From a virus, in IMG/VR virus record IMGVR_UViG_3300020473_000042, positions 1 to 52,330 of that record: 52,330 bases of DNA. One strand, given 5' to 3'. Below are positions 15,701 through 48,633 of this stretch, in pieces. The position numbers were made by a program, and so were the translations under genes. Under the pieces are notes generated by a model. It worked only from the letters and a program-made list of their open reading frames with translations, was not told the DNA's origin and searched no databases. How positions within the stretch are numbered: position 1 is the first letter of the stretch; the number at the start of each line of letters is the position of its first letter.

Positions 15701-18412
15701 AAATTTAAGGACTACTTCAGGTTCTGCACCAGATAGGCGTAGTAAAGCTTTTTGTACAAACGCTAAATTTTCTTCAGCTTCTTTTTGTGCAGCTCTTATA
15801 AAATTATAAGATAATTGTAAACCTTCGTTTCCCCAATTACTTAATGCTCCAAAAAATGCGTTTCTAGATTTTTTATCAGCTAAAGCTTGAGTAGCCATAG
15901 CTACATGATGTTGATTTGTTACTGTTGCCTGTATTTGATTTATAGTTGCATAAAACGTTTCTTCTACGTCTAATCCAGACCCTAATTTTGCTAAATCTTC
16001 ATGCAACTTTGATGCTTGGGACCAAGCTTTTTTATAAGCTTCTACTTGCTCTGGCGTTATCATCCTAGCTACCATTTCAGCGTGTTTGTCTATTTTTTGC
16101 AGTGTAGACATTCTTAAAGCCATAACAGCATCAAGTTCTGTATCCCCGATTACAATTTTTTCTCCTGTTCTTTTATCTATCACTTGTCTAGGATTTATTA
16201 AAGCTCCGTTAGAATCTTTTAATAGTCTTTTTGTGTCGGCTACAAATATGTCAAATGGGCCTAATCCTTGCGACCAAGCCATAACTCTTCTTCCAAAAGT
16301 TGTGTTAAATATAGTTTCACCTGCAAATTCTTGAAACTCCACCGTTCTAACGTCTGGTTCATCTACAATTACTTTTCTTTTTTTACCATCTTTACCTATT
16401 ATAATTTTTTCTACTTCTTTGTATTCAGGAGCAGGTATTTCTACAGTTCTAGTATACTGGCTTGGTTGTTTTTGTTTAAATACTTTATCAAGAACTTTAG
16501 CCACATGATAAAAAGCCATAGGAAAAGAAAGCTCCCCTTGTAAATAGTTGTCTTGTTTCCCTACCATATTGCTTGGCAACTTTAGTCTTGCTCTTCCTGC
16601 AAGCCCACCAGCTCTATTAAGTACACTTTCTACAACTTTATAAGCTGCTGGAGGATTTGCCCACACTCCAAGTAAACCTGCTAGATGTTTATAGGGTTCC
16701 CATTTTGTACCAGCAGTAGCGTCTTCCCACATAGTCATTGCAAAACCTGCTCCAGCAGCAGCATTATAGTACATTATATCTCTATAATGTTTTTGCATTC
16801 CTAATATATCTTTTGGTTTTATGTACTGAAAAGAAGCTGTTTCATACGTAGGCATTCCTGTTGTCTCATCTACTTTACCTCTTACTGTACCTACTACTGT
16901 TTGGGGACGAGCTTTCGCAGTAAGATTTTTTTCTTTAACTTTAGCTTTTACATTTTTCCAAAAACTTGGCTTAATATCTTGTAAAACTTGTTTTGTAACA
17001 TTAGCTTTAGCCTGACCTATTTCGTTGTTAAGTCTACTTATTGCTAATCTTGAAGGAGATACTGCAGCTTCATCAAGATGCCCTTTAGCTTTTGCTTCTG
17101 CTTTAGCTAATGTTGCCAATTTACTCTTAGATAGATTCTTTATTAGCTTGTTTCGTGTTTCTATTTTTGCTTTTATGGCTGGACCTATTAACTCTTCTAC
17201 TTTTGTAATTTGAGGAGCAGCAAAAGGCTCGACTTTAGGAAGATCTCTAAGAACTTTTTGTTCTGAAGATATTCTCAGTATTCTATCTGATGCTTTTCTA
17301 AAAGACCCATGCGCAAATTTTGCTATACCTTTTATTTCTTTCCCACCAAATAAACTTACTGCAAATTCATATGAAGCTATTGCAGTTCTTTCTAATAAAT
17401 TTAAATCTTCTAATTTATATTTTTTAACTAATTCAGATAAACGATCATTTACCCACTCATAGGGTATAGGATTTTTTTTGTCAATATAATAAGTTTTATC
17501 GTAATCAGGAGCCCCTTGACCAGAACCAAACAAACCCATAGTACCTTTGTACGCTTTTTCAACTGTCCCTAATGAATATGCTGATAGAAGATTTAAAGCA
17601 GCTAACGTTGTTTTTGCGCCAGCAGTAAGCCCAAACTCTACAGTTCCTATTCCTCTTTGGATACCTTCTAGCCTTCTTTCTGGAGGAACGTTAGGGTCTA
17701 ACCCAATTATATTTTCCGCTATCCATTCAGTTAAATTTTGATCTTTTGGCTGTGTAGGATCAAAACCGTCATATCTTTGAGCAAGCATATTTAATTTTAA
17801 AATTTTTTGTTGTTCTACAAATTTCTTTTGTATTTCTTCTTGGTCAGGGCTTAACATTCCTCCGCTTATTGCTCCAAGATTGGGTGATAAACCATATAAC
17901 TTTATTCCTAAGTAATCGTCTGGAGAAGGTTCAATATTTAAATAGTCTGGAGTAGGTGACTCTTCATATTGTATTCCTCCTCCTAAAGCTCCAAAATAAT
18001 CTGGATTAAATTGTGCCATTAAACGTGTTTGAGGTTTAGGTACTGCCTCTCCTAGTCCAGTGGGAGGAGGTGTTGTGTAAAAGTCCCCTCCTCTTGTGAA
18101 TTGACCACCTTCGTAGCCCATGAAATCATCTTCTGTAGCTGTTCTAACTAAATGTCGTCCTATGCCTGTTGCACTTAGTTCATCTGTAAATGTGGTCGGA
18201 CCTAAACTTGTAACATCTTGACTTTTATCGTCAGACGTTGTAGGAGAAGCAACAGTGTCAGGCGAGGTTTGTCCTAAAAAATCTAAACTTAAATCAGGTG
18301 TGTTACCAGCTTTAGCTTGCGCTACTGTAGTAGCACCAGTATTGACAGGTGGGGTATTATTAGTTGAAGGCTTGACAGGTTTTTTAAATTTATCTATAAC
18401 CCTTATTGACAT
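12800..18412 (-). CDS. Giant internal virion / ejection protein (1870 aa), T7 gp16 position
   Basis: This is the largest gene of the window. The N-terminal 150 residues are low-complexity and Pro/Thr-rich. Most of the rest is helical with coiled-coil character. Two hydrophobic stretches (AAAGAGFAMTMW near 545 and TAGAKTTLAALNLLSAYSL near 260) could insert in membranes. Position and size, after 487- and 1084-aa proteins and before the holin, match the T7 gp14-gp15-gp16 core series, whose largest member is ejected into the cell to form the DNA conduit. Unlike T7 gp16 I see no lytic transglycosylase motif. The same decapeptide type, PDL(S/N)LDFLGQ, occurs at residues 39-48 and at the extreme C-terminus. 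The gene is strikingly AT-rich. Confidence 0.75.
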   Translation of the reverse strand: MSIRVIDKFKKPVKPSTNNTPPVNTGATTVAQAKAGNTPDLSLDFLGQTSPDTVASPTTSDDKSQDVTSLGPTTFTDELSATGIGRHLVRTATEDDFMGYEGGQFTRGGDFYTTPPPTGLGEAVPKPQTRLMAQFNPDYFGALGGGIQYEESPTPDYLNIEPSPDDYLGIKLYGLSPNLGAISGGMLSPDQEEIQKKFVEQQKILKLNMLAQRYDGFDPTQPKDQNLTEWIAENIIGLDPNVPPERRLEGIQRGIGTVEFGLTAGAKTTLAALNLLSAYSLGTVEKAYKGTMGLFGSGQGAPDYDKTYYIDKKNPIPYEWVNDRLSELVKKYKLEDLNLLERTAIASYEFAVSLFGGKEIKGIAKFAHGSFRKASDRILRISSEQKVLRDLPKVEPFAAPQITKVEELIGPAIKAKIETRNKLIKNLSKSKLATLAKAEAKAKGHLDEAAVSPSRLAISRLNNEIGQAKANVTKQVLQDIKPSFWKNVKAKVKEKNLTAKARPQTVVGTVRGKVDETTGMPTYETASFQYIKPKDILGMQKHYRDIMYYNAAAGAGFAMTMWEDATAGTKWEPYKHLAGLLGVWANPPAAYKVVESVLNRAGGLAGRARLKLPSNMVGKQDNYLQGELSFPMAFYHVAKVLDKVFKQKQPSQYTRTVEIPAPEYKEVEKIIIGKDGKKRKVIVDEPDVRTVEFQEFAGETIFNTTFGRRVMAWSQGLGPFDIFVADTKRLLKDSNGALINPRQVIDKRTGEKIVIGDTELDAVMALRMSTLQKIDKHAEMVARMITPEQVEAYKKAWSQASKLHEDLAKLGSGLDVEETFYATINQIQATVTNQHHVAMATQALADKKSRNAFFGALSNWGNEGLQLSYNFIRAAQKEAEENLAFVQKALLRLSGAEPEVVLKFEGLLGQMKNMASKLEKRNATLKAEIGNIAEFDAKHALDLRSSSLLNEIITGSKGEGMGTGVGGKFGIQRLGGEADVDALTKHGEDFVNALSKAENVVKNDIDNLYTYKNSPNSVSFTIADTPANAEEFVNSFKFLRNRDIGSEVNVLNRLLKAHSNFGMVAKSDVPTTFYDDLIATARFNYLNSGDFNTSASLIALANKIDDLGLPLTLNNNVFRSDSGREITLRQSTDTFDNIDIRASLKSLDDVGDANPAFALHSDLETAKIIYLQRFIANLKTIPNRAPVDAEEQLARMLPAHLSANEIIGVRKFLAARTGPKQFLTEAERNLLPSIEEANKIISKLGIEGAEEAAEQWVKYVNSFRSPLGILLKQPFDAGSKRITEQWEVPEYIFRNSADETIPVLEKMFESYTKANKQTISFNEAKNSMRDVLDDTAILMLINQEKRNIILRDMNKLKKLNKAGFLSDQTYNVIKTFKEEIDDVAKNVEIFKDIVQKENNLKTLIKTVGTALDNTTRKSILGNEKILSGEVSDLFDFLTATGIKIDQKPILPQAFREQTVALEKQVSSGMDIIEAIKGNPFMKRSQLESMIREIQPKSIYDAQGKRQDVFLETFFGIKPNATTITKDQKKRLEDLAIVLQNEMIKRSIVPVKDERRSIFQPNLTSGFRESKFGEAMGLPSNRFFGLSTDIDVVKFGELMNNVMPLFKRINSLTGNTTRNENLDRLFQASVLIKSVGPESKAAMELLGRIPTGITMPAALSRLYAGFRGVVSWRYLASEQIIREHQRSKAMMLHTIYTDPTFMKALVTALEAGVYGTKNVPKEDIKYLRKTIRRIMGGRIIVYNEEGDIPPEDEISDENFLVGLLNSLNQAGFEIFGFDMHKSTGLLRTERRDALALDRGSIPGRVQLLEDEETAVKEGTGFRGTLANPLQSEAEQNLPLTSDNVQGDNSLFVPPLNNEDPDLNLDFLGQGE

Positions 18413-21400: not shown

Positions 21401-21679
21401 TTTACGTATTTCACTTGGTGTAAAAGCAGCAGTAATGTCAAACAAAGGTCCGTAACTTCCTACATTTTTGTAAAATTCACCTGCAGCTTTTCGTATATTA
21501 GCAAGTATTTTTTCATTACTAGCAGCTACTGTTTGTTTAAGCTTTCCTTTAGCAATTTCAAGATTCTGTTCTTGCAAACTAAGTTTTCTTTCTTCGAGCG
21601 CACCTTTTTTTTCACCAGCAATTCTTGCATCTCTGGCATCAAACCAAGCATTTCCCAGTACTCCAATATCTATACCCAT
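18425..21679 (-). CDS. Internal virion / core protein (1084 aa), T7 gp15 position
   Basis: The 1084-aa protein begins MGIDIGVLGNAWFDARDARI and continues with a charged helix (RKLSLQEQNLEIAKGKLKQ). The remainder is mainly helical, with a Gly/Trp-rich patch (KIWNALWGGGLAGPWAKG) that could be membrane-active. No enzyme motif is visible. By order and size it corresponds to the middle ejection protein (T7 gp15, 747 aa) but is longer. It starts on a TAATG overlap with the 182-aa gene and ends 12 nt before the 1870-aa gene. Assigned by context rather than sequence. Confidence 0.65.
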   Translation of the reverse strand: MGIDIGVLGNAWFDARDARIAGEKKGALEERKLSLQEQNLEIAKGKLKQTVAASNEKILANIRKAAGEFYKNVGSYGPLFDITAAFTPSEIRKAIAAGMKFNQVDAKVKGYPFLTILPNNIPEAKKHDETTHKNLREGSVPITSLRREDVPAALSKTFKLGSFSQNAAAFNATRLSHLNTADLARQNEYVTKTANPQGLVNIKRLIGERGTPLGKYVALDMNTQGLKNEVTRYTGLFGEKAINSAIKKEPRILPYLNFKRLESRYQEILDGRNVQEIRAFSKILKQKQPEFANLVLSSKKALRVSIKREKDSASESYNFVNYETDLPNLSRLFGYKHKATKITPIELSKPDVLARELDIKDPIHADAFLSQGLITITDEEARNSSPKKEATVQGYTGPNQKLASDDSQTGTSAIVNRNEVNSKTEILKNQKRPNSGSVNFEDQPWLLKIVDSNGKRLPAPLEADFTKPNHFHFAIADLWLDKFPEYKKYEQNRILLDRVKPLTSALKKLDTLSTNVVDNETNYKAAILAMRNRYPDISFKEARKLVDNAMILRKMVPNMQEPLPNNFNSFVQPGPITRRTGDQLEEHEKQALKGATSIKNKAEVLQGHVNQFKDAVRTIGIAVGVDNVDGQTRQAMSAILKELRKRPDEWNAILDEAYKTKRITLDEYKSIKDEAFDEGIKNTGPLYTAATKFIGIWEELKGLPNYISNLVSKGWGENHLNERLGALGIKKSRADIYAGSPQGGVNAYNRMVKSRLTQLEGSKYLDGLKKEIDEIDGKEEKTDADIRRKLLLLNHGRLFNLKVSMTYFYAGLVQGESGGRAISNEDFDKIWNALWGGGLAGPWAKGSFDTLQKTINNIIRRSENDSKFIGYGPKGDMSLSDYMIKLDRLGDRLIDATGRFANMKQGPLKETIKRYRPANYTRFRTSLTAAPALQAKLAEPQSQESSFFNQAIGPALVGLRQKRDQFRGFAKWSDIDRAGGRTKNIAINTMLIPLMEQNLDPNVSTVVGKGNLKPLIKQQLNLFSRLKTDNNKSVGFGDMLDYFLSKSTTKDGKVVPNFIGGIDRTVQAAYIIKFFRDLYNESKQ

Positions 21680-22227
21680 TATTCAACCTCCATATCTAAA
21701 AAACTTTCCCTTTGAGGTGGAACGTCTTCTTCAAAATCTATGCTGTGTGCTAATTCTTCCATCTGGCTTTCTTGCTCAAATTGATTTAATTTTCTTTCAA
21801 ATTTCGCAGGATTGAGTTGTTGCATAATTTCCATAGTATCTATACCGTCCATAGGATCTTGTGGAAGTGCGTTTACTACCTCTATATCTTCAATACCTGC
21901 CTGTACCCCTAACTTAGTAATGTATCCTACTAATGGAGGTTTTATAATTTCTGCAACGTCTGGAGTAAAAACACCTTCTGAAAACATTTTTAAAACTAAA
22001 GCAGAAGCGATTGTTTCTGAGGATATTCCTGTATCTAAAAGTGTTAATATTGATTCTTGAGAAGAAGGTTCCTCTAAAGATGTAACTATCTTATCCATAG
22101 CTTCTTCTGGGTCTGATATTAAAGAAGGTTGTTCATAAGGGTTTTTTCCAGGTGTATCTGTAAAAGATTGTCCAGGTATAGGTCTTGTTAAAACGTCAAG
22201 TTCTAAATCTTCTGTCTGTATAGCCAT
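21679..22227 (-). CDS. Acidic hypothetical virion-region protein (182 aa)
   Basis: This acidic 182-aa protein begins MAIQTEDLELDVLTRPIPGQ. It has a Pro/Ser-rich N-terminal third, a helical hydrophobic centre (ETIASALVLKMFSEGVF) and an acidic tail (IDFEEDVPPQRESFLDMEVE). It is coupled to the 1084-aa gene by TAATG. No family recognised. Its place in the core-protein block suggests a scaffold- or chaperone-like partner of the internal virion proteins. Confidence 0.65.
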   Translation of the reverse strand: MAIQTEDLELDVLTRPIPGQSFTDTPGKNPYEQPSLISDPEEAMDKIVTSLEEPSSQESILTLLDTGISSETIASALVLKMFSEGVFTPDVAEIIKPPLVGYITKLGVQAGIEDIEVVNALPQDPMDGIDTMEIMQQLNPAKFERKLNQFEQESQMEELAHSIDFEEDVPPQRESFLDMEVE

Positions 22228-24868: not shown

Positions 24869-25357
24869 TTACCTCTTCGCATACATTATAAAAAGCCATA
24901 AACCGCCAATGATAACAACTACAGCAATGATACTACATAGAATTTCTGATATTTTGGCCCACCGTTTCTTTGATATTCGTCTTTTTGCTTCAAGGGCTTC
25001 TTCGTATTGTTTCTTTTTTTCATCTCTGGCTATCAGTATGTAAGTCCAAGTATCTTGACCAAACTTTCTATTTAACAAGTATGAAATTCTATCTATGGCC
25101 TTTTGAGCTTCTTTTTCCTGAATTGTTTCTGTGATAGCCATCTGAAGAAAATTATCAGAGGTTACACCTTTTATTAAACCACCCCACTTACTTGCAATAG
25201 GATGAGCTTTTTTCTTTAACTGCTCTTGCCCTTTAAAGACGTTATCAATTAGTCCTGCTATCTCTGACACATCTTCAGTAGTCTTGAGAGCCATTTTTAT
25301 GGCTTTGCAACTCTGCTGAACTAGCTGTAGTCCAAAAAGTGTTTCTGCAACGACCAC
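24869..25357 (-). CDS. C-terminal TM protein (162 aa), GTG start
   Basis: The 162-aa helical protein has a single C-terminal membrane segment (ISEILCSIIAVVVIIGGLWLF) ending YAKR. Before it is a long charged helix (RDEKKKQYEEALEAKRRISK). The only in-frame start before the conserved-looking N-terminus is GTG at 25357, with GAGG about 8 nt upstream and two bases after the Cys-rich miniprotein stop. Tail-anchored proteins of this kind recur beside tail-fibre genes of marine phages, as I recall, with unknown role. Its position next to the spanin-like pair suggests lysis or membrane function. Confidence 0.65.
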   Translation of the reverse strand: MVVAETLFGLQLVQQSCKAIKMALKTTEDVSEIAGLIDNVFKGQEQLKKKAHPIASKWGGLIKGVTSDNFLQMAITETIQEKEAQKAIDRISYLLNRKFGQDTWTYILIARDEKKKQYEEALEAKRRISKKRWAKISEILCSIIAVVVIIGGLWLFIMYAKR

Positions 25358-34168: not shown

Positions 34169-34659
34169 TATGTTGCAGCAAATACACGCACGTTAGCGGT
34201 ACTTCCAGATGAGTTGTAACATTCTATTCTATCTATGGTGTCTGCTGTCCAGTTACTTTCCCATGTATCATTCTCTGATAAATAGTTGGCTTCACTAAAT
34301 GAACCAGTAACGTCACCTCTGTTTCGGCTAAGATCGTCAGCAAGAAGAAAAGGTACGCCAGCTTGCAGTTTAACAACCCATGCGTTTTCAAGATTGCTTC
34401 CTGCTACTGTGCCTCCTTCATTACACATAAGTTGTATCTCTACAATCTGATCTGACTCTATCCAAAGAAAATCAAAGTCGTCCAGCATTGTATCGTTCCA
34501 TATCTCTTTAAGCGTAGAGTTAGTAATTGCGTAACGCTTGTCAAAATAGTGTGTTATTGTAATAGAGTCTGTTGATGTAGTACTTCCACCAGTGATGGTG
34601 TGCGAGTCATCATCTGGTATGTCTACAGTAAAATGTGTCGTTAGACTTAGCGTTGCCAT
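34168..34659 (-). CDS. Hypothetical virion protein (163 aa)
   Basis: This strand-rich 163-aa protein begins MATLSLTTHFTVDIPDDDSH. It contains DFLWIESDQIVEIQLMCNEG and ends SGSTANVRVFAAT, the look of a small beta-sandwich virion protein. It is coupled by 1-nt TAATG overlaps with the oxygenase gene upstream and the zinc-ribbon gene downstream. No family recognised. A decoration or tail-completion role is plausible from position. Confidence 0.68.
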   Translation of the reverse strand: MATLSLTTHFTVDIPDDDSHTITGGSTTSTDSITITHYFDKRYAITNSTLKEIWNDTMLDDFDFLWIESDQIVEIQLMCNEGGTVAGSNLENAWVVKLQAGVPFLLADDLSRNRGDVTGSFSEANYLSENDTWESNWTADTIDRIECYNSSGSTANVRVFAAT

Positions 34660-35309
34660 TATCCTTCCTCCATTTTAACGCTTACGTTCATACTGAAAGA
34701 ACGTCTTTCCCCTTTTGTACGAAACGGATACACTGTATGCATTAGGTATCTAGGGAATATGTAAAAATCTCCAATTTGAGGTTGTATTGTTAAAGTATGA
34801 CTATTAAAATCTTGAGGAACTCCGTATACAAATTCTATGTGTCCTCTTACTGCTCTTCTTGATTTAGCTTCTTTAGCAAACTCTTTTTCTATGTCCTTTG
34901 GCAAACTTAAATACCCTACGGATGAAAGAGAGCAGTATGTGTGTATGTGTATAGGGTTAAACTGACCTGCAAACTGTCTTACAAACCACGCAGTTCCTAA
35001 TTTAAACGGCAAACTTTTCTCAGAGTCATGTACTTTTTTTATGTAAGCATCTACTACAGCTTCAAAATAACCGTCATACTTTTGTCTTAAATAGTCTGGT
35101 ACTCTTAGTTCTTGTTCTACTTTTCCTACAAGGTACTGTGACCAATCGTGTTCTTTGACTTTCTTTTTATCTTTTGCCATGTCCTCAAGACCTTGATTGT
35201 AATCGTCTATCAATTCTTGAGGTAAAACAGATTTAGCTATAAAAGGTCCAAAAGGACGGATCATTAAAAAAGGTATTTCTGACTTTTCGTTACTAGCCTT
35301 TTCTGTCAT
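34659..35309 (-). CDS. 2OG-Fe(II) oxygenase superfamily protein A (216 aa)
   Basis: The C-terminal half has a double-stranded beta-helix signature. FNPIHIHTYCSLSSVGYLSL supplies the first metal His (and possibly the second ligand), GDFYIFPRYLMHTVYPF the distal His, and GERRSFSMNVSV the Arg that would bind 2-oxoglutarate. This resembles the putative 2OG-Fe(II) oxygenase families common in cyanophages and pelagiphages. The N-terminus (FLMIRPFGPFIAKSVLPQEL) is typical for them. Substrate is unknown: protein, lipopolysaccharide or nucleic acid are all possible. It lies 1 bp from a second oxygenase gene. Confidence 0.78.
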   Translation of the reverse strand: MTEKASNEKSEIPFLMIRPFGPFIAKSVLPQELIDDYNQGLEDMAKDKKKVKEHDWSQYLVGKVEQELRVPDYLRQKYDGYFEAVVDAYIKKVHDSEKSLPFKLGTAWFVRQFAGQFNPIHIHTYCSLSSVGYLSLPKDIEKEFAKEAKSRRAVRGHIEFVYGVPQDFNSHTLTIQPQIGDFYIFPRYLMHTVYPFRTKGERRSFSMNVSVKMEEG

Positions 35310-35310
35310 T

Positions 35311-35946
35311 TTATTTACCCCATTCTTTCTTGAGGTAATTTTGTACGAGTACAGATTTCACGAATGCGCCGTTGGTAATATCTTGTGATAAATGCTGATT
35401 TACCTCGTATAAATTCTTTAGCATGAAAGACTGTTCGTAAGAAACATTTGAGGAAAACCATCCAAGCACGTTTGTTCTCAAACCTTTTGTTACTTCCTGC
35501 ACCCCATGCGGATAGATAATTGGAAATATAGCAGCTTCACCAGCTTTTAACTTTCGTCCTATAGTTCCTACTTCAGTACTAAAGTATATCTCTCCTCCTT
35601 CATATTCATCGCTTAGATTTATTGAAAAGCCATAATCAAAATGTACGTTGTTAGATTTTGGATAGGCTTTAAAATTATCTACATGGAGGTTATAGTAGTT
35701 TCCTTTTTTATACTGATTGTAATAATTAACAGAAACTCTAGTTGGGCAATACACACAATCTATATAATGAGCGTCATATATTTTGTTAATTATTAGTTTA
35801 CGTACTTCTTCTGGTACGCCTACAGATTCTTTATTATTTTTTACGTCTTCTAATGGCTGTGACTTGTTGCCATCTTTAAAAGTATCTTTACCAATACCGT
35901 CTAAACAGGATTTAATTTCGTCTTCATTGAGTAATTTAATAAACAT
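35311..35946 (-). CDS. 2OG-Fe(II) oxygenase, prolyl-hydroxylase/PKHD-like, protein B (211 aa)
   Basis: The motif series is clear: YNLHVDNF (His-x-Asp metal ligands), DYGFSINLSDEYEGGEIYFS (core strands), GEAAIFPIIYPHGVQEV (second His) and GLRTNVLGWFSS (Arg for 2-oxoglutarate). I chose the start at 35946 because AGGGG lies 8 nt upstream; an upstream ATG would add 11 residues without a better ribosome site. It is unlike protein A in sequence, so this is a pair of different oxygenases rather than a recent duplication. It probably hydroxylates a virion or host surface component. Confidence 0.85.
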   Translation of the reverse strand: MFIKLLNEDEIKSCLDGIGKDTFKDGNKSQPLEDVKNNKESVGVPEEVRKLIINKIYDAHYIDCVYCPTRVSVNYYNQYKKGNYYNLHVDNFKAYPKSNNVHFDYGFSINLSDEYEGGEIYFSTEVGTIGRKLKAGEAAIFPIIYPHGVQEVTKGLRTNVLGWFSSNVSYEQSFMLKNLYEVNQHLSQDITNGAFVKSVLVQNYLKKEWGK

Positions 35947-35990
35947 TCTATATCCCCTTTCAACAGGACAAGTGAACAAAGCAAGAAAGG

Positions 35991-39068: not shown

Positions 39069-42000
39069 TTAAGCTGCTTTATCTACCACTCGTTTTACAA
39101 AACCACCTTTATTTTTGTTTTCGCCACCTGTGGTAAAAAATAAATGATTTTTTGACCTATATACTGGTTCTTTATCTTTTGCAAATTTAGGCGTTTGTTT
39201 AACCCCTTTTGGATTGTAAAAGAATGTAGCTCCTTTTGTAAGGTCTGGTTCTGTAGGATCATTATTAAATATTTTTTCTGCTATAGATTTATATTTTAGA
39301 TACATTTCATTATCATCCATAGTGTTTACCATTACATTGAAGTTATTTAACCTTTTTTCAAAATCATCACTATGTTCTTTTGTACCAAAATCAGGTATTG
39401 TTGAAAACGCTCTTGGTTGCAAAATAACTTCCTTTAAACTATTTGGAAAACCTTTTTCACTAACTCTGTTTTTCATTACATGAAGTACAGCTCTCATACC
39501 ATCTTCACTAGGTAATTCACTTTCTTCTGATCTAGCTTCACCCATAGCCATTAAAACAGCCATGTCTATGTCTGGTATGTTAGAATAGGCGTTAAAATTT
39601 TCTAAAGCTTCTTTAAAATAAGGTCTTTCTTGAAGCGGTTGTTTTCTTCCAGGTATGGGAGGTGTTTGTGCCTGTTTTGCTCCATCAACAGGGCCAGCAT
39701 CTGCATACCCTTGCGGTGCTGAAAAACCTTGTTGTACTATCTTTCCAGTTGGGTCAACCATAGGAGGTTGCTGTGCTTGTTTTCTTGTGCGCTCCAATGC
39801 TTGCATTTGATTGTAAGAAGACTCTTGTGCCTGTGTTGTATCTGATTCCAACATAGCTTCTACTGTAGGTTGTTTTTGTTCGTTAGGGTTCATAACAAAG
39901 CCACCTTTTTGCATCATAGGTGCTTGAGGTGCTTGAGGTGCTTGAGCCATTTGTTGAGGTTGTTCTTCAGGCATAGGTTGCTGTTCTTGCATAGAAGGTT
40001 GTTTTTCTTCTTCTAGTCTTTTGCGTAATGCAAGACCTTCATCCCTTATCTTGTCTAGATACTTCTTACCGCCTCCAAAAAACGGCACTAGCACTTTAGG
40101 AATATGGTACTCGTAGTTGCTCACTTTTATTGGAACGTCATCTGTTGGATCTATGTCTGTTCCAGTTAATTCAATATTATTTTCCATAGCAAGTTTTATA
40201 GCTTCTCTGGCGTATCTGTTTAGTTGGTTTAAGCCTGTAAGAAGAACAGTCTCGTAAGGAAGAATGTAATCACCCTCATCTGCTTCTCTTGGTATGTCGT
40301 CCTGTACAGATTTTTGACCGCCTTGCTGTGGTTCTGCTGCTGGCGCATTTATTATACCCAGATTAGCCATGTCTGCTGGTGCGCCTTGCTGTGGCATAGG
40401 TGCTTGAGGTACTTCGCCTCCCTCTTGAAATGATATATCTGAAAAACCAGACCAATCTTCTGAAGGTGCGCCATCACTTGCAGCAGATGCATTATCTCCA
40501 GCAGATGCATCGTCATCGGACTGCCATTGTCCACCAGCTTCTTCACTTCCTTCTACTAATCCATAGTCAAAAGCTTTTGACATATCTTGAGTGCCTTCAG
40601 TGTAATCTCCGTAATAATCAAAAGCTTCTGCCATGTCTTGTTCAGGATCGTCTTGCCAACCTGCCCATCCTGCCATTGACCCCTGAGATGTTGCGAAAGG
40701 GTTGTATCGCTCAACTCCTTTTAAAGTAACCTTGTCGTCTAGTTGACCATCTGTAAAATCATAGTCATAAGTCCACGTTGGTAGTATTCCTATGCTTTGT
40801 TCATACCCTTTTTGGCTCATCATGCTTCTGGAACTATACTGTCCTCCAAGATCTGGATGTATAGAAATGCCCCCCTGAAGCATATCGTAATATTCACCAA
40901 CTCCTAAAAGATTTACTCCTTGATAATCAAAATCTTTTTCACTAAGAACATAATCCCGATCAAACAAGTTAGGATTTGGCTGCCATCCAAAATGTAGACT
41001 TTCACCATTGTCGCTGTTAGACGCACCGCCATATGCTTCTACAGCTTGATCAAATAACGGTTTTAAATTAGGATCGAACTGCCTGAAACTTGCTCTTCCA
41101 AACCCACCTCTTGCATCTATAGCTTGTTGTAAATTATTAAATCCTTCTTTTGTTGTCAGTGCTTGTTTAAAAGTGTCTTCATCACCAAACAACATTTCCC
41201 TGCCAAACTCATCTCTGTAGTTTCCGTTTGGTAAATATCCAGCAGGACCAATAGGCGTAGGATCATCAAAACCCAAACCATCTAAAATAGGAGACAAATA
41301 CTTTTTAAAAAAAGAATCTTCTCTTGCAGCTTCTCCAAATTCCCTATCTTCAAGATCTAAAGGATGGTAAGGTTTTCCAGTAAAAGGGTTAGCTTCCAGA
41401 CCGTCAAATGTTATTGCTTCTGTTCCTTCTCTCCAAAGTTCTAAAACTTTATCTGCAATTTCTTTTCCTTCTTTAGTTGAAATATCTCCAAACTCGCCTC
41501 TGTTGTACCATTCTTCCATTTGATCTGCAGAAGCTCCTGAAACATTGTAATACAAATCTTTTTTACCTGATTGTACATCTTTTATATTGCCGAACATATT
41601 TGAAGCTAGGCTTCCTACACTTGCTGGAGATCCTGATACAATTCCTGCTATGGCTCCAAGAATACCTCCAAAACCTATTTCTCCAGGAAAAGATATGGCT
41701 CCTGCTGAACCAGATAGATCATCTGCGTCTGCGCTAGTTTCAAGTTGTTCTGTAGTTATAGGTCTTCGTTGTTGAACAGCAAGAGAAGTTTCAGTAGCAG
41801 GAGCATCTACTGAGGCGGTAGCAGCAGCTTGTGTTTGCCCTTGTGCTGCAGCAGTTCTTCCTGCAAATCCGCTAAAAGGAGCTTGAGCAAAAGTTTTAGC
41901 ACCGCTTGGCAACAATCCAGATGTTATCCCTGCTCTGTAAAATGAAGGGGCTGTAACACCAGCAGGTATGTCTGGGAGCAACTCAGAAGATGTTAGACCT

Positions 42001-42170
42001 GCGCCTTCCTGTAATCTTCTAACTATTTCAGGCCAAGATAATTTTCTTTTGCCTCCTAAAGTTGTAACACCAACAGGAGCTATAGTTCCAGGAGTTATGG
42101 TAGTTCCTGTTTCTACACCTAATGCGCTTTCTAATTGTGTAGCTAAATTTTCAAGTGTTGTGTCTGCCAT
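39069..42170 (-). CDS. Large virion-associated protein with C-terminal SleB-type cell-wall hydrolase domain (1033 aa)
   Basis: The N-terminal 600 residues are low in recognisable motifs. Around 630-720 is a segment (EGDYILPYETVLLTGLNQLN and PKVLVPFFGGGKKYLDK) that recurs in marine phage structural proteins, as I recall. A Gln/Pro-rich linker follows. Residues about 868-1015 match the SleB/CwlJ hydrolase family: MAMGEARSEE with the catalytic-type Glu, GMRAVLHVMKNRV, GFPNSLKEVILQPRAFS and LTKGATFFYNP. The domain could open peptidoglycan during DNA entry or assist lysis. KGGFV occurs twice. The start overlaps the small 81-aa gene by 20 nt. Confidence 0.75.
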   Translation of the reverse strand: MADTTLENLATQLESALGVETGTTITPGTIAPVGVTTLGGKRKLSWPEIVRRLQEGAGLTSSELLPDIPAGVTAPSFYRAGITSGLLPSGAKTFAQAPFSGFAGRTAAAQGQTQAAATASVDAPATETSLAVQQRRPITTEQLETSADADDLSGSAGAISFPGEIGFGGILGAIAGIVSGSPASVGSLASNMFGNIKDVQSGKKDLYYNVSGASADQMEEWYNRGEFGDISTKEGKEIADKVLELWREGTEAITFDGLEANPFTGKPYHPLDLEDREFGEAAREDSFFKKYLSPILDGLGFDDPTPIGPAGYLPNGNYRDEFGREMLFGDEDTFKQALTTKEGFNNLQQAIDARGGFGRASFRQFDPNLKPLFDQAVEAYGGASNSDNGESLHFGWQPNPNLFDRDYVLSEKDFDYQGVNLLGVGEYYDMLQGGISIHPDLGGQYSSRSMMSQKGYEQSIGILPTWTYDYDFTDGQLDDKVTLKGVERYNPFATSQGSMAGWAGWQDDPEQDMAEAFDYYGDYTEGTQDMSKAFDYGLVEGSEEAGGQWQSDDDASAGDNASAASDGAPSEDWSGFSDISFQEGGEVPQAPMPQQGAPADMANLGIINAPAAEPQQGGQKSVQDDIPREADEGDYILPYETVLLTGLNQLNRYAREAIKLAMENNIELTGTDIDPTDDVPIKVSNYEYHIPKVLVPFFGGGKKYLDKIRDEGLALRKRLEEEKQPSMQEQQPMPEEQPQQMAQAPQAPQAPMMQKGGFVMNPNEQKQPTVEAMLESDTTQAQESSYNQMQALERTRKQAQQPPMVDPTGKIVQQGFSAPQGYADAGPVDGAKQAQTPPIPGRKQPLQERPYFKEALENFNAYSNIPDIDMAVLMAMGEARSEESELPSEDGMRAVLHVMKNRVSEKGFPNSLKEVILQPRAFSTIPDFGTKEHSDDFEKRLNNFNVMVNTMDDNEMYLKYKSIAEKIFNNDPTEPDLTKGATFFYNPKGVKQTPKFAKDKEPVYRSKNHLFFTTGGENKNKGGFVKRVVDKAA

Positions 42171-42396
42171 CCTTATGTGCCTTTATTGTAGCTTGCGTTG
42201 CATCTTTTAAATTAATTAAGATTTCCAGTAAAGCCAGCTTCCCCTGCAGTCGGCGCACTTCCAATTCCGATACCTCCACCACCAACTGCTGTCTCATCAT
42301 TTGGGCCAGTTCCTTCAGGTAACTCTCCAGTCCCTCCCATTCCAGTTGGCTGTTGGCTAGTGGCAGCAGCTTCTGCGCCTGTTCCTTGTTGATCAT
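42151..42396 (-). CDS. Helical protein (81 aa) overlapping the portal 3' end
   Basis: This 81-aa helical protein begins MINKEQAQKLLPLANSQLEW and continues EGLESYLKELAQMMRQQLVV. It looks like a genuine coiled-coil protein of a type that follows portal genes in marine podoviruses, as I recall. It overlaps the last 185 nt of the portal gene in another frame and the next gene by 20 nt. GGGG lies about 12 nt upstream of the ATG, still within the portal coding region. The portal frame across the overlap encodes only a Gly/Thr/Glu-rich tail, so this frame appears to carry the structured product. Confidence 0.65.
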   Translation of the reverse strand: MINKEQAQKLLPLANSQLEWEGLESYLKELAQMMRQQLVVEVSELEVRRLQGKLALLEILINLKDATQATIKAHKDGRHNT

Positions 42397-44338
42397 TTGG
42401 CATTAACCCCTTTAACATTTCAGCAAAAATTGCTGCATCGCTCATATCGTTTACTAACTCATCAGGGTCCATATCTTGACTTATGGCAAGCTCCCTGATT
42501 AGGTTTGGTATCTTAATGAACGGTGCTAGCATCGGATTCGCAACTGTCTGGAGTAAAGCTGTTAATCGTTGTGTGCGTACTTCTTTTTGTATTACTGCGC
42601 TGGTTCCTTTAGGTTTAATCTCAAGATCACCTATCTTTTCTGGTGTTCTCTCGTTAAACTGCATGTTCCACTGAAAGAAAGACTCTCCTAGTGGCTTCAG
42701 TAAAAAGTCATCTATGTTCTTTATTACTGTCTTTACACTCAATCCTGCGCTGGACATTAACATGCTTAGTCCAGCAGCAGTACGTCCTGTTCCTGTAACG
42801 CCTGTCTGTCCGTGTACAATAGAGGGTATTCCTGTCTGTTCGTCTGCAAGCTGCCTTGCTTTGTCGAACATCTGTACATTTTCACCAGCAGTGCTAGGAA
42901 ACTTTATGCCGTTAACTGCAGTACCTGTAACACCAGACTGCCTCCTGAATATTTTTCCAGGATATACGTCCATTGTCTGTCCAGGTACAAGCTGAGTTTC
43001 GTCTATATCGAATACAAGATTACCAGCTAATGCTAGGTTATCTATTGCCATACGAATGTGACCATTCATCAGCATCTGGCTATCCTCCATGTTCTCAGCA
43101 ACACCTACACCAAATAGCTGGTAGGGGTTGAGTTCGTATGGAAAAGCCTGATAAGGTATTCTTGCAGGTATAAAAGGGTTAGCTACGAATCTGAGGATTT
43201 CGTTTCCTGAGATCCAGATGTTGACTTGGATTGCGTCACCTTGCTTAACTTCTCTTGGAGCTTCAATACCGATTTCTTCAGCAAACTTCGCATCCATTGT
43301 ACCCCAATACTCAAATATTTCAAAACGCCGTCCTTGATAATTCGGATCATCGTCATTAGCATAGAGAGTAGTTTCATAATACTTTTCTTCGTAATTTGGA
43401 CCACTTTGTAAAACATTTTCTATTGCCTCTTGGTTAAAGAATGGACGATTAGTAAGATCACGTACCTGCTCTCTGTTCATTCTGTGTCGCTGTATCACGT
43501 AATCTGCATCTTCCAGACTTGTAGCACTGGGGTCTGGATAAAAATCCCAACAGCTAACAGCTTCTACTCTAGGTACTGTTCTGTCGATAGGGCTGTATTG
43601 ACCGCCCTCCCAGTTGTGTATTGTTTTGTTATAATTAAACGGACCTTTTACTATTCCAGTTCCAAGCAAAGCACACTCGAATATAGAGTGTCTCAAAACA
43701 GTCACTGCATTAGTGTCTAGTAGCTGATCGTGTATGCAAGTTTCCATGTTTCTTGCTGCTTCTGCTGCTGGACTTATCTGTGGTTCGCCCATACGTGCAG
43801 GGCCAGAAGCCAGATTAGCACCTTCGTACTTGTCTTCTAGTCCTCCAAGTTCTGCTGCTTGCGGTCCTTGCTGCTGTTGCTGCATAGGTGTTGCTTGCAT
43901 AGCTCCTGGAAGTAGCTCCATGCCATCACCTTCAAACCCAACATCATCAGGAGAACCTTCTTGAACTGGAAATGGAGACAGGTGAGCATACTTGTCAATG
44001 CCTTCTGGCATAGGAGTCGCCTGAACAGATATAGGAAACTTATTGTTAGCAAAGAGTATATCTATAATTTGACCGTAAGCTGCTAGAACTTTAGTCTTGG
44101 TTATCTTGACAAAGACTTGACTGCGCTCGTTATCTCTGTACTGAGTTGTCGAGTCGTAGATACCACGATAATTCTTGTACGCTTTAAGCCAGCGTTCTTC
44201 ATCGCTTCTCCTTCCTGTCTCTGCATCAGAAAACCTAGCCTTAACAGATCCTATGACACTGTTATAGTCTTCACGCTTATCGTCTAAATTAATTAGCCCT
44301 TCTGTCTCTTCATCGTCTAGAAAAGATTGATCAGCCAT
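42212..44338 (-). CDS. Portal (head-tail connector) protein (708 aa)
   Basis: The 708-aa protein has portal-type features: an acidic N-terminus, ERSQVFVKITKTKVLAAYGQ, the long central region with CWDFYPDPSATSLEDADYVI, and NPYQLFGVGVAENMEDSQML. TGRTAAGLSMLMSSAGLS near 560 is typical of podovirus portals. It would form the dodecameric DNA channel. The C-terminal tail of about 60 residues is Gly/Thr/Glu-rich low complexity and is encoded over the start of the 81-aa gene. It lies two genes downstream of TerL. Confidence 0.88.
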   Translation of the reverse strand: MADQSFLDDEETEGLINLDDKREDYNSVIGSVKARFSDAETGRRSDEERWLKAYKNYRGIYDSTTQYRDNERSQVFVKITKTKVLAAYGQIIDILFANNKFPISVQATPMPEGIDKYAHLSPFPVQEGSPDDVGFEGDGMELLPGAMQATPMQQQQQGPQAAELGGLEDKYEGANLASGPARMGEPQISPAAEAARNMETCIHDQLLDTNAVTVLRHSIFECALLGTGIVKGPFNYNKTIHNWEGGQYSPIDRTVPRVEAVSCWDFYPDPSATSLEDADYVIQRHRMNREQVRDLTNRPFFNQEAIENVLQSGPNYEEKYYETTLYANDDDPNYQGRRFEIFEYWGTMDAKFAEEIGIEAPREVKQGDAIQVNIWISGNEILRFVANPFIPARIPYQAFPYELNPYQLFGVGVAENMEDSQMLMNGHIRMAIDNLALAGNLVFDIDETQLVPGQTMDVYPGKIFRRQSGVTGTAVNGIKFPSTAGENVQMFDKARQLADEQTGIPSIVHGQTGVTGTGRTAAGLSMLMSSAGLSVKTVIKNIDDFLLKPLGESFFQWNMQFNERTPEKIGDLEIKPKGTSAVIQKEVRTQRLTALLQTVANPMLAPFIKIPNLIRELAISQDMDPDELVNDMSDAAIFAEMLKGLMPNDQQGTGAEAAATSQQPTGMGGTGELPEGTGPNDETAVGGGGIGIGSAPTAGEAGFTGNLN

Positions 44339-44354: not shown

Positions 44355-44591
44355 TTAGCCGTTGATCCCTTGTTGTTTATCAGCAGCCATAATCATAGCA
44401 GCTTGGCCCATATGCTTGTTACCTGATTCTGCAGGAGCATCTTCAGTCAACTTGCCTATGTCTATTTTAGTGCCGAACTCAAGTTTTTCCCTATACAGTG
44501 CAGACTCATTGCAATCGCTAAGTTCGCCTTGTTTTTTCATCTGGCCCATGATGTAACCAGATTTGTATGCTTGTGGATTACCGTATGGCAT
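44355..44591 (-). CDS. Hypothetical protein (78 aa) upstream of portal
   Basis: The 78-aa protein begins MPYGNPQAYKSGYIMGQMKK and contains FGTKIDIGKLTEDAPAESGN. It has the ribosome site GGAGG about 10 nt before the start. No domain is recognised. It lies between the recombinase-like protein and the portal, 16 bp before the portal start. Probably a small head-assembly protein, by position only. Confidence 0.68.
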   Translation of the reverse strand: MPYGNPQAYKSGYIMGQMKKQGELSDCNESALYREKLEFGTKIDIGKLTEDAPAESGNKHMGQAAMIMAADKQQGING

Positions 44592-44626: not shown

Positions 44627-46990
44627 TTATCTTGTTGTTGGAAATTCTTCAGAAGATTCACCTGTTCTTTCAAAGTAATCTTCGTATTCTTTTATAAAAC
44701 CTGTTCTTTTAGGTTGAAATTTGTCTTCTGTAAGCCCCATAGACACAGCTTCTCTTTCAGCAGTGTCTTGTCTTTTTAAAAAACCTTTCATTTCATCTGC
44801 ATATCGACTTGAAGCTTCTTTTTCTAAAAGCATTAATTCATCTTCTCTTGTTCTTGGTCTGGTAGTGTATTCTTCTTCTGTTGGAAATTCTTCTGCAGTT
44901 GGATCTGCTTTCGCCATGTTTGGGAAATATACTCCTCTGGGTACAGCATATTCAGTGTCTTCTTCAAATTTATCTGGTATTCCTCTTTCTGCTTCCATTC
45001 TTTGTTGCATAGCGTCAAACAGTTCAGGATCTTCTAAATCTTCAATAGGTCTTTCTCCTGCAGGTCCAGCTTCAGCAGCTTGAAAAGCTAACTCAATACC
45101 TGCTTCTCCTAACATTGCTTGAGGGGCAACTGCTGCTAGGGCCAAACCGCCTATTATTCTTTTACCAGCTTTAGATTTTAAAGCTTCTAGAGCCTCTTCA
45201 GATCCATCTTTTGCCAGATCTATTAATTTTCGTAATTTTTTATCAGCATCTTTATTTTTTGCATCTGCTTCGTTTAATATAGCTTGTTTTAGTTCGTCTT
45301 TATCTCCAGTTGCTCTTGCTTCATTTATTTGTCGTGTATTGTCAGCAGGAGGAGTATCTGATTCTATGTCCTCTCCTACAATAGACTGTCCTTTTCTCAG
45401 CCTATCTTTAATTCCTCCTCTGCCTCCCCCTGTCCTTGCACTGGATATAGCACCTCTTCTGACTAACTCATCAAACATGCCTTGAAATTTAGTAGCTAAA
45501 TCAGTTAACTGTCCCTTAAAATTAGCCATTCCCTCTTGAACAGTAGATGCTAAGTTGACAGCCATCCTACTAAAAGCATCGTAGTTAGGCATCTCTGTAA
45601 CGTCAGGTATCTTTCCTTCTGGGTGCGTAAGTCTGTTAGGATGATTTTCGTATCCAGGTTTTATTCCATCTTGTGAAAAAGTGTCTTCCTCAAAACCCAT
45701 ATTTGGAATAAGGCTTAGTGCATCTTGAGTTACTCTGCTTAATGAAGCTAATATTCTTCCAGAAGATAATCCTCTGCTGTCTATTGCTTCTGATACTTCT
45801 CCTACATAGTCTTCTTCGTTAATTCCAAATGCGCTTAAAAAAGCTCTTGGACTGATAAAGTCCGAATACCCTACTAATCTACTTTCTAAAGTTCTTAATG
45901 CTTGTTTTCCAAACTCTATTCTTTCACCAGAATTGATATACTTAGTTGCTTCATCTGTTCTTGCTCTTCCAGTTACCATCTTTCTTTCAATTAAAGTAAA
46001 ATCTCCTACCATAGACTCCATGTTGTTTCTTAAATATTTCATTAAAAAACCAGTTTCTTTAGGTTTAGTTCCTGCTAAATCTTTTTCAACTGTAATTCTG
46101 TGTTCATTTCCTAAATTTCTAGCTATGTCGTCTGCTATGTTATCAGTTATATTTGAACCATACGTACCATGACCTTTTGGAAAAAGTTTTCCATCTTTTT
46201 TTCTTTTAGTGTTAGGAGACTTTTCTCTTTCTTTAATAATCTGATTTAGAATTTCTCTTGAAACGTCACCAAAAATAACTGTAGTTTTGTACCCACCTTT
46301 TGTTTCAGGAATAGATAAAGTACCATTATTTAAGTCTATATCCTCTAAAGCTATTCTTCCCATTTCTTCAAGACGAAGACCTGTTGTATACTTTAATAAA
46401 CCAAACAATTTAGACATTCTGTCTACTTTAGTGTTTTCACTTAAAGATTTTATAAAAGCTTTTTGAAAGTTAGGAGGTAGATTTACAATATCTCTAGATC
46501 TTTTTTCTTGAAGATGAAAATAACTTTCTTTCAACTTACCTAAAGTATTTTGAAGTTTTTGTATTCCGTCTAAACCTGCATAATTACTTATTGACTTAAT
46601 ATAAGAAGCCATATCAGCTTTAGAGTAATTACTAAGACCTTGCTTTTCTAATAGTCCATCAGGCTTAAACAGTGCTTTTATAACACCTGCACTGTTTAGC
46701 TCTTTTAATGTTAAGTCTGAAGCTTGTACCAGCTTACCATCCCCAAGATCTATAGTAGTTTCTCTCAGTTTTGTAAGAACGCCCTTTAAAGCACTTGCTG
46801 CACCTCTTGAATAAGCACCACTTCGATTAGCAGTAGGATAAATCTCATTTCCATCTGCATCAAAAAGATCCTTGACCCCTCTTTCTTTCATACTCTGAAG
46901 AATAGCTTGCTCAAAGTTGCTATCAGGAGATATAGCTGCTTCTTGTGAAATATCTATTTCTGTAAGTAATTCTGTTACTTCGTCTGCCAT
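44627..46990 (-). CDS. Large protein with tyrosine-recombinase-like domain between TerL and portal (787 aa)
   Basis: The N-terminal 180 residues are helical. Residues about 190-360 look like a tyrosine recombinase catalytic domain: TGLRLEEMGRIALEDIDL (R206), IPETKGGYKTTV (K231), LMKYLRNNMESMVG (R321) and MVTGRARTDEATKYINS (candidate nucleophile Y351). The His of HxxR is Lys318 and the second His is Arg342, so the active site is incomplete. The C-terminal 400 residues are acidic and helical with one hydrophobic segment (IIGGLALAAVAPQAMLG) and EEFPT repeated near the end. Size and position suggest a virion or head-assembly protein; recombination activity is uncertain. It overlaps TerL by 1 nt. 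Confidence 0.7.
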   Translation of the reverse strand: MADEVTELLTEIDISQEAAISPDSNFEQAILQSMKERGVKDLFDADGNEIYPTANRSGAYSRGAASALKGVLTKLRETTIDLGDGKLVQASDLTLKELNSAGVIKALFKPDGLLEKQGLSNYSKADMASYIKSISNYAGLDGIQKLQNTLGKLKESYFHLQEKRSRDIVNLPPNFQKAFIKSLSENTKVDRMSKLFGLLKYTTGLRLEEMGRIALEDIDLNNGTLSIPETKGGYKTTVIFGDVSREILNQIIKEREKSPNTKRKKDGKLFPKGHGTYGSNITDNIADDIARNLGNEHRITVEKDLAGTKPKETGFLMKYLRNNMESMVGDFTLIERKMVTGRARTDEATKYINSGERIEFGKQALRTLESRLVGYSDFISPRAFLSAFGINEEDYVGEVSEAIDSRGLSSGRILASLSRVTQDALSLIPNMGFEEDTFSQDGIKPGYENHPNRLTHPEGKIPDVTEMPNYDAFSRMAVNLASTVQEGMANFKGQLTDLATKFQGMFDELVRRGAISSARTGGGRGGIKDRLRKGQSIVGEDIESDTPPADNTRQINEARATGDKDELKQAILNEADAKNKDADKKLRKLIDLAKDGSEEALEALKSKAGKRIIGGLALAAVAPQAMLGEAGIELAFQAAEAGPAGERPIEDLEDPELFDAMQQRMEAERGIPDKFEEDTEYAVPRGVYFPNMAKADPTAEEFPTEEEYTTRPRTREDELMLLEKEASSRYADEMKGFLKRQDTAEREAVSMGLTEDKFQPKRTGFIKEYEDYFERTGESSEEFPTTR

Positions 46991-48633
46991 TAGTATCCAA
47001 ATACGCTATCTGCTGGTTGAAATGTATCTTTCTTTATCTGGTTAAATATGCTGTTCTGTGGTAAACCTGTTGGTCTAGTCATGCACATATATCTTAAAGC
47101 ATCGTAGGCGTGATCATCAGACTTGGTGTCTACATCCTCACTGTTAGTCTTAGACAAGGGTATCGTAGGTAGAGTCCTTATTAGGTTTGTACAGGTAGAG
47201 AATATCTTTAGTTTTGGTTCGTCTGTACGCTCGTCTATGGCTAATCTTCTGTGTAGCTCTATTTTTCCAGGTATTCTGTTTTTATCTGCTGGTATCCAAC
47301 GTACACCGTTGCGTATCATTGACTCAGCTATGCTCGGCCCTGTACCGTGTTTAGACCAACAAGCCCCATCCAGAACAGAAATCTGCATCAGGGGATCATT
47401 TTCCTCTAATGCGTTGATTATTCTTGCCAGAGTTTCGCCTGTGTATCCCTTGTCGTATAGTTCCCTGTATATAAAGATGTTTCCATCCCAATCTACAGCA
47501 CCCCAAAGTACGCAACTAGGACTACTATAGCCATAATCGGCTGCTCGTAGTCTAGGCCAGTTATATGGTACTTCAAACGGTTCAACGACATGTACAGACC
47601 TGTCAAACTCTGAGAATGCTGCACCATCTGCAACATCCCAATCCCCTTCTAGAAGTCTCCTGCGTTCTACTTCTGGCAGGGAAAGCAACATGGCTTCGTA
47701 TTCGCCACTTTCCATCAAAAACGGATTATCTGTTAACCTTGCAGGTATAAACCGCCTTTGGTACAGTGGTTCATCAGCGTGTTCTGGGTGATTAGGCCCA
47801 TAACGTAATACTTTACCACTGTCAATGTCTGTAGCCCAGAATGGTTCGTTAGGAATTGCAGGGTCTACAAACATTTTCTTTAACCACCAACCCCCTACGC
47901 CTCCAGGATTGGCAGAAGCTCTCATATACGTCTGGATCTCTGGATCAGTAGTACGTAGACGAGATCTAAGGTAGTTCCAGACATACGGCGTTGGGTATTG
48001 ACCTAACTCATCTACACCGATCCAAGTAAAACTCTGTCCTTGATACCTTGTAACGTCATTATCCTTGTCAACATAACTGAATAACGCTGTAGCACCGCTA
48101 GGAAACGACCAAGTATTCTTGGATTCTCGAAATACTGCACCTGGAAATGCCTTTGGATACAGCTTTCTTGACTGATCTACTAATTCTGTCAGTTCTGCCA
48201 GCGTCCTTCTCAGTAGTAACGCCCTGTGATTACCGTTAGAGGCGTAGCGTAGAAGGTCTACCAGCATTGCAAATGACTTACCGCCACCTGCTGCACCACC
48301 ATATAATACTTCTTTTTCTGGTGCTGCCAAGAAGTCAACCTGTGGACCCTTATTGGGTCTGAATACGACTTCTGTGTTCTCTTCTATTGATTCTCTTATA
48401 TCTTTAGGCAGTGAATCAATAAATTCTTTTGTTGTTGCTCCACCAGAACCAGCTAATTTCTGCCCATTCTTCTGTCTGGCGTGTGTTTCTTGTATGGTAT
48501 TGAGCTTTTTCTCTATAGAACGCTGCTTGTCTTTAGCTGCTTTTAGCTCTTTTCTTACTTCTCTCTTTCTCTTTTCTGTCCTTGAAAGATTATAACGCCC
48601 CTTTTCTCCAGGCTTCAGCTTTGGTCTTGCCAT
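46990..48633 (-). CDS. Terminase large subunit
   Basis: This 547-aa packaging motor has Walker A GGAAGGGKS (112-120), Walker B WIGVDE (204-209) and a C-terminal nuclease domain starting near RLRAADYGYSSPSCVL. A lysine-rich N-terminal extension of about 90 residues precedes the ATPase. It pumps phage DNA through the portal encoded at 42212 and cuts concatemers. It follows TerS and two small genes in the late operon, and its stop overlaps the next start. Confidence 0.94.
   Translation of the reverse strand: MARPKLKPGEKGRYNLSRTEKRKREVRKELKAAKDKQRSIEKKLNTIQETHARQKNGQKLAGSGGATTKEFIDSLPKDIRESIEENTEVVFRPNKGPQVDFLAAPEKEVLYGGAAGGGKSFAMLVDLLRYASNGNHRALLLRRTLAELTELVDQSRKLYPKAFPGAVFRESKNTWSFPSGATALFSYVDKDNDVTRYQGQSFTWIGVDELGQYPTPYVWNYLRSRLRTTDPEIQTYMRASANPGGVGGWWLKKMFVDPAIPNEPFWATDIDSGKVLRYGPNHPEHADEPLYQRRFIPARLTDNPFLMESGEYEAMLLSLPEVERRRLLEGDWDVADGAAFSEFDRSVHVVEPFEVPYNWPRLRAADYGYSSPSCVLWGAVDWDGNIFIYRELYDKGYTGETLARIINALEENDPLMQISVLDGACWSKHGTGPSIAESMIRNGVRWIPADKNRIPGKIELHRRLAIDERTDEPKLKIFSTCTNLIRTLPTIPLSKTNSEDVDTKSDDHAYDALRYMCMTRPTGLPQNSIFNQIKKDTFQPADSVFGY

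Follow-up and report, generated by a model that had tools for sequence, protein, structure and literature searches.

Tyrosine recombinases (TRs) of the Xer and phage integrase kind (XerA, XerD, lambda Int, Tn1549 Int, Cre) have a common fold and catalytic residues in the order R-K-xxR-Y with a characteristic spacing. The His-II and His/Trp-III positions vary in accepted members too and are thus not strictly defining, and integrases are often swapped among temperate phages. Podoviruses of the HMO-2011 type, described in PMC9038755 as a dominant and widely distributed marine virus group, include members such as HMO-2011 and CRP-3 with canonical integrases of about 300-390 amino acids, which that account places upstream of the replication module. 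VLF-1, the product of a core gene of insect viruses (baculoviruses and nudiviruses), is a TR-family protein tied to capsid assembly and DNA packaging; it is a nucleocapsid component and its catalytic Tyr is required for infectious virus (PMC3649998). For the lytic phage phiCbK, a TR has been proposed to act in multimer resolution (PMC3556154). MuF polymorphic toxins and polyvalent proteins (PMC5576092, PMC5512222) are characterised by a variable effector domain, a gene in the portal/terminase block, domain shuffling and proposed virion delivery; in PMC5512222, neither tyrosine recombinases nor integrases came up in a text search.

The locus analysed here lies in a viral sequence of 52,330 nucleotides (IMG/VR record IMGVR_UViG_3300020473_000042), referred to as the window. 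The large protein encoded between its terminase (TerL) and portal genes shares with the Xer and phage integrases the fold, the order and spacing of catalytic residues, the LF motif (F270) and a likely N-terminal core-binding region. It differs from them in the replacement of His-II and, in its relatives often, of His-III, in a length of 550-1050 residues among its relatives, in a long hydrophobic/acidic tail, and in being encoded in a hypervariable slot of a packaging operon. The canonical HMO-2011-type integrases belong to the same superfamily and phage group, but differ in size and location. The likeness to VLF-1, not known as a hypervariable allele slot, lies in the TR fold. The pattern is similar to that of the MuF toxins, in which, however, the toxin domain is C-terminal and the gene lies just downstream of the portal, whereas here the gene is upstream of the portal, the variable part is N-terminal and the effector is a TR; the MuF domain itself had no Pfam match in this or the other slot proteins. 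The superfamily is already known, while its setting and evolutionary pattern at this position were not found described in the literature searched, and the passages searched in the published account of the group (PMC9038755) make no mention of a recombinase between TerL and portal.

The interval between TerL and portal

TerL and portal of the window show about 50% identity to their counterparts in HMO-2011, HTVC033P and the CRP phages, and on this sequence relationship the window is an HMO-2011-type marine podovirus. It has no direct terminal repeat. The 787-residue ORF that the earlier note had placed between TerL and portal is indeed present there, on the minus strand, which the note had left unstated (Table 1). 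Its start codon (ATG) overlaps the TerL stop codon by a single base, the last of the latter. The equivalents in relatives of the small ORF that follows it track TerL and portal, not the recombinase allele. The interval is termed the slot below, and the N-terminal recombinase part of the slot protein its head.

Table 1. Features of the slot and its flanks, with positions in the window and the basis or conservation of each
Feature	Position	Strand	Basis or conservation
TerL, upstream flank of slot	46990..48633	minus	PHROG terminase 3e-59
Slot gene, 787-aa protein with TR head	44627..46990	minus	start 46990
N-terminal helical region, probable core-binding domain, residues 1-170	46481..46990	minus	AF2 confidence low to medium
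TR catalytic domain, residues 171-400	45791..46480	minus	Pfam, AF2, PDB and profile matches
Arg206 (Arg-I)	46373..46375	minus	R in 104/105 distinct relatives
Lys231 (beta-hairpin Lys)	46298..46300	minus	K 75 or R 23 among 104
Lys318 (His-II position)	46037..46039	minus	variable in family: S, Y, T, K, A, R, H
Arg321 (Arg-II)	46028..46030	minus	R in 101/101
Arg342 (His-III position)	45965..45967	minus	R 45, H 54, T 1
Tyr351 (nucleophile)	45938..45940	minus	Y in 92/99
Hydrophobic segment, residues about 612-633	45092..45157	minus	in most slot proteins (TR or not), similarly far from C-terminus
C-terminal tail with GFI, window variant of [GSND]F[LIVM]	44627..44713	minus	motif search
78-aa ORF between slot gene and portal	44355..44591	minus	ORF call
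Portal, downstream flank of slot	42212..44338	minus	SU10_portal 8e-31

A tblastn search with the window slot protein and three relatives (L134, L131, L116) gave no match in 50,697 phage records, and a first viral scan with the window protein returned the near-identical contig only. Relatives were found by way of TerL and portal in place of single-protein searches. In about 150 IMG/VR loci recovered with these two proteins, the gap between them often holds one large ORF (300-1050 residues) followed by an ORF of about 72 residues. Iterated HMMs started from the window head yielded 46 proteins, and the addition of 80 more loci raised the number with a TR domain to 117 (106 distinct). Of these, 114 directly follow TerL; the other three are on contigs that lack TerL or have a partial ORF. 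The heads are about 22% identical to one another. By hhalign the TR head extends to several further groups of slot proteins, and 20 large slot ORFs without a match to the TR profile comprise some that are TR-like by hhalign or blastp and others that are non-TR; the non-TR proteins still have the hydrophobic segment.

The slot gene is absent from the cultured HMO-2011-type members examined, including HMO-2011, in which TerL and portal abut, and HTVC033P, which like HTVC115P and Manatee Spring phage has small unrelated ORFs in the gap. Other genes occupy the gap in rhizobial relatives. In Sinorhizobium phage phiM6 (among loci L003, L004 and L008) they are phoH and an SGNH hydrolase; judged by eye, the slot of Rhizobium phage RHph_N3_19 holds a large FAD-enzyme-like protein and that of Manatee Spring phage an HNH-like protein. 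Strongly basic non-TR slot proteins, several with VRKPK-type tails, were seen in L033, L043, L049, L020, L024 and L017. PADLOC gave no match for the five slot proteins submitted to it.

The recombinase head and its catalytic residues

The tyrosine-recombinase-like domain reported in the earlier note was confirmed, and both its catalytic fold and its profile matches place the slot protein in the PF00589 TR superfamily. PF00589 (Phage_integrase) matched residues 189-289 at 1.5e-9, above the curated cut-off, and was the sole Pfam family found in the window protein; no telomere resolvase or topoisomerase IB family was matched there or among the slot proteins. A PHROG integrase profile matched at 1e-8 and NCBIfam XerA at 2.7e-9, the latter below that family's own cut-off. 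Searched against the PDB, the slot-TR family profile matched an XerC-like protein (6.5e-16), XerD (3e-12), with an alignment spanning from before Arg-I through the Tyr region, and lambda Int (4e-9), with an alignment that extends into residues 1-170. The recombinase fold was also found by structure prediction. An AF2 run with residues 1-420 and 46 relatives gave pLDDT values mostly of 79-95 across residues 171-400, and the top PDB matches listed for the model (XerA, Staphylococcus integrase, Tn1549 Int, XerH, Cre and lambda Int) are all TRs, at TM-scores that are modest over the whole chain. Structure matches in BFVD were phage integrases, with nudivirus VLF-1 further down (E about 0.01-0.02).

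R206, K231, K318, R321, R342 and Y351 are all located where they had been proposed, with Xer/lambda-like spacing, and R206, R321 and Y351 proved to be conserved in the relatives (Table 1). Residues were counted over 106 distinct slot-TR sequences, for which the median share of the top residue per column is 0.26. When these are reduced to 51 clusters less than 50% identical, R321 (1.00), R206 (0.98) and Y351 (0.92) stand against a median column of 0.24. F270 is the sole column that equals the catalytic Arg and Tyr columns in conservation. In the five heads with F at position 351 the next residue is Y. The full set R-[KR]-R-[HR]-Y is present in 86 of 98 complete slot TRs, the other 12 lacking it as aligned.

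Replacement of both histidines, by Lys318 and Arg342, holds for the window but is no peculiarity of this single protein, as position 318 varies widely across the family and position 342 is commonly Arg or His. The two positions are strongly coupled, Y318 occurring with R342 (19:0) and T, G or H318 with H342 (22:0), and this suggests two catalytic variants. Because the TR fold and R-K-R-Y are retained despite extreme divergence, the head is very probably catalytically competent. Conservation of the catalytic residues at this level of head identity favours a selected activity, as predicted here, over a relic domain; given the degenerate His-II and His-III positions, that activity could be altered.

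Exchange of slot alleles and the C-terminal tail

In 51 of 76 pairs of loci with TerL more than 95% identical, the heads are less than 35% identical, and the median head identity of all 76 pairs is about 23%. The small ORF after the slot gene averages 86% identity in the 35 scorable pairs with low head identity. DNA identity holds as far as the TerL stop, is lost abruptly at the slot start codon, and returns either in the C-terminal tail of the slot gene (L190/L131, L258/L136, L122/L199) or just after its stop. These boundaries indicate that whole alleles are exchanged, and tails are shuffled separately from heads. Heads also pass between phage lineages: the pair L135/L194 has heads 88% identical, with TerL at 83%, portal at 79% and the last 60 residues at 27%, and in L106/L225 the heads are 84% and TerL 75% identical. 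The window head has a GC content of 0.327 versus 0.434 for TerL and 0.435 for the portal, which is consistent with import. Assembly chimerism was considered as a source of the hypervariability and rejected, since many independent contigs have allele edges that coincide with gene boundaries, and the same alleles were found again in separate metagenomes. To judge from these alignments, the packaging/head operon has a conserved slot filled by hypervariable alleles that are exchanged, and the slot gene of the window is one of them.

The description of a large helical protein with one membrane-like segment was upheld as to the segment, a hydrophobic stretch that lies 70-170 residues from the end in most slot proteins, TR-headed or otherwise; the second half of the protein is predicted to be helical, at low confidence. 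No fold is claimed for the tail, as the full-length AF2 model is poor past residue 400, and the slot tails are predicted to be mostly acidic and helical. A C-terminal profile seeded on the window tail recovered only that tail, which indicates that tails are conserved within lineages alone.

Of 75 distinct tails, 35 have a terminal motif, [GSND]F[LIVM], within their last 14 residues, against a background of 2.5%; the GFI of the window lies about 22 residues from the end, farther than in most relatives. The motif also occurs in the first 20 residues of 59 of 156 portals (background 2.1%), and a slightly wider form is present in the last 25 residues of 103 portals. The window portal has QSFLD near its N-terminus and a related GFTG near its C-terminus. 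Besides the portal, structural-block proteins of 1033, 1870 and 182 residues carry the motif at their termini; the 12 plus-strand early genes of the window encode no protein that does so. Being short and defined after inspection, the motif is a lead, not proof, for membership of the slot protein in the head/portal assembly. With the portal, the carriers in the window (39069-42170, 12800-18412 and 21679-22227) may share a docking motif of this phage group.

Possible roles of the slot protein

The earlier note had proposed either an integrase domain recruited into a virion or packaging protein or an unusual recombinase used on concatemers or ends, and of this the domain, the intact catalytic set and the non-lysogenic context are supported. 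The reading that we favour, to which we give a little less than an even chance, is a polymorphic protein that is associated with the head or packaging, carries an active TR head and is encoded in a hypervariable slot, its specificity diversified by conflict. A link to the head and to packaging is suggested by operon position, the overlap with TerL, the hydrophobic segment and the terminal motif. The slot protein is perhaps delivered by the virion. Its tail would attach to the head/portal assembly, so that the protein would be made late with the packaging genes; it would probably travel inside the particle and leave it together with the DNA, and the head would then cut and rejoin specific DNA. 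The DNA specificity of the head would be the part that diversifies, and the simplest selective force would be a conflict that pits the phage against host defence, resident elements or competing phages, much as is the case for polymorphic effectors delivered by virions. We regard as possible, with distinctly less confidence, a virion-delivered system in which interchangeable TR heads on a common head-docking tail each have a different DNA substrate in the cell just infected (that of the host, a resident element or a rival phage) and are diversified by frequency-dependent selection.

A head sequence that is nearly free except at the active site, and that is swapped between near-identical phages, is a sign of strong selection in the ocean of a kind not yet described. 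If the effector reading is true, polymorphic effectors of the virion block extend to DNA strand-exchange enzymes. The slot family is also a source of many divergent TRs, and an unusual active site, in which the third position is Arg, occurs among them.

The main alternative use of such an enzyme would be to circularise or resolve the phage's own DNA. A recombinase for packaging or genome processing (concatemer or dimer resolution, end processing, circularisation), possibly also structural like VLF-1, would be well placed between TerL and portal with an overlap to TerL; it has precedents in VLF-1 and the phiCbK TR, and nudivirus VLF-1 is among the viral structure matches. We nevertheless consider it unlikely, as a housekeeping role fails to explain near-random heads at 95-100% identical TerL and the absence of the slot TR from HMO-2011, HTVC033P and others. 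There is no obvious dif-like site near the slot gene, and no inverted repeat around it was convincing as a recombination site.

It is likewise doubtful that the slot gene is the lysogeny integrase in an odd place, with attP within the ORF or next to it, and alleles swapped because each targets a different attB. Contig G001 (L168/L169) shares 25,282 bp with the window at 99.8% identity, slot gene included, and past the shared region encodes a 334-residue canonical integrase by an exonuclease-like gene, on the opposite strand; the window has neither, nor a second PF00589 match. A slot TR thus coexists with an ordinary integrase, for which reason it is probably not the lysogeny integrase itself. 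The two sequences diverge near 25284 in G001 and 25529 in the window, just past the end of a 1002-residue gene. The setting agrees with the earlier view of a head-assembly block away from an attachment site: the gene lies in a packaging operon with no tRNA and hardly any intergenic DNA that could hold attP. Moreover, slot TRs were found in none of 18 HMO-2011-type loci from genome assemblies (MAG/SAG) identified by portal, a set with poor host coverage, and their size and hydrophobic tail are unlike those of integrases. On the other side, the TR fold is closest to phage integrases and Xer, integrases of temperate phages are likewise often swapped, and most of the slot-TR contigs searched have no second PF00589 match, so that an integrase role is possible there. 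Canonical HMO-2011-type integrases are moreover nested within the tree of slot TRs, near L056/L100, with weak deep support; some slot heads may therefore derive from integrases, and the tree suggests, though it does not prove, more than one capture.

A self-exchanging, homing-like cassette, in which the TR itself catalyses allele replacement at the slot, appears improbable. Replacement at the level of the ORF is precise at the TerL stop and the next ORF, heads are transferred across lineages, and the HNH-like, phoH, FAD-enzyme-like and SGNH genes in the slot of other phages indicate that it is insertion-prone; the same boundaries are, however, expected from ordinary homologous recombination in conserved flanks, tails are exchanged apart from heads, and a homing enzyme would not be expected to bear a long non-TR tail conserved within lineages. 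A structural protein whose DNA-binding domain has lost catalysis is scarcely credible, for despite the degenerate His-II and His-III positions and the few members without one catalytic residue, the catalytic set is complete in most members at very low head identity and its Arg and Tyr columns are equalled in conservation by F270 only.

Two further features of the structural block were observed. The 1033-residue protein encoded after the portal ends in a cell-wall hydrolase domain (PF07486, 4.7e-14) and may be an ejection protein. Two adjoining proteins at 34659-35979 are, by their sequences, 2-oxoglutarate/Fe(II) oxygenase-like.
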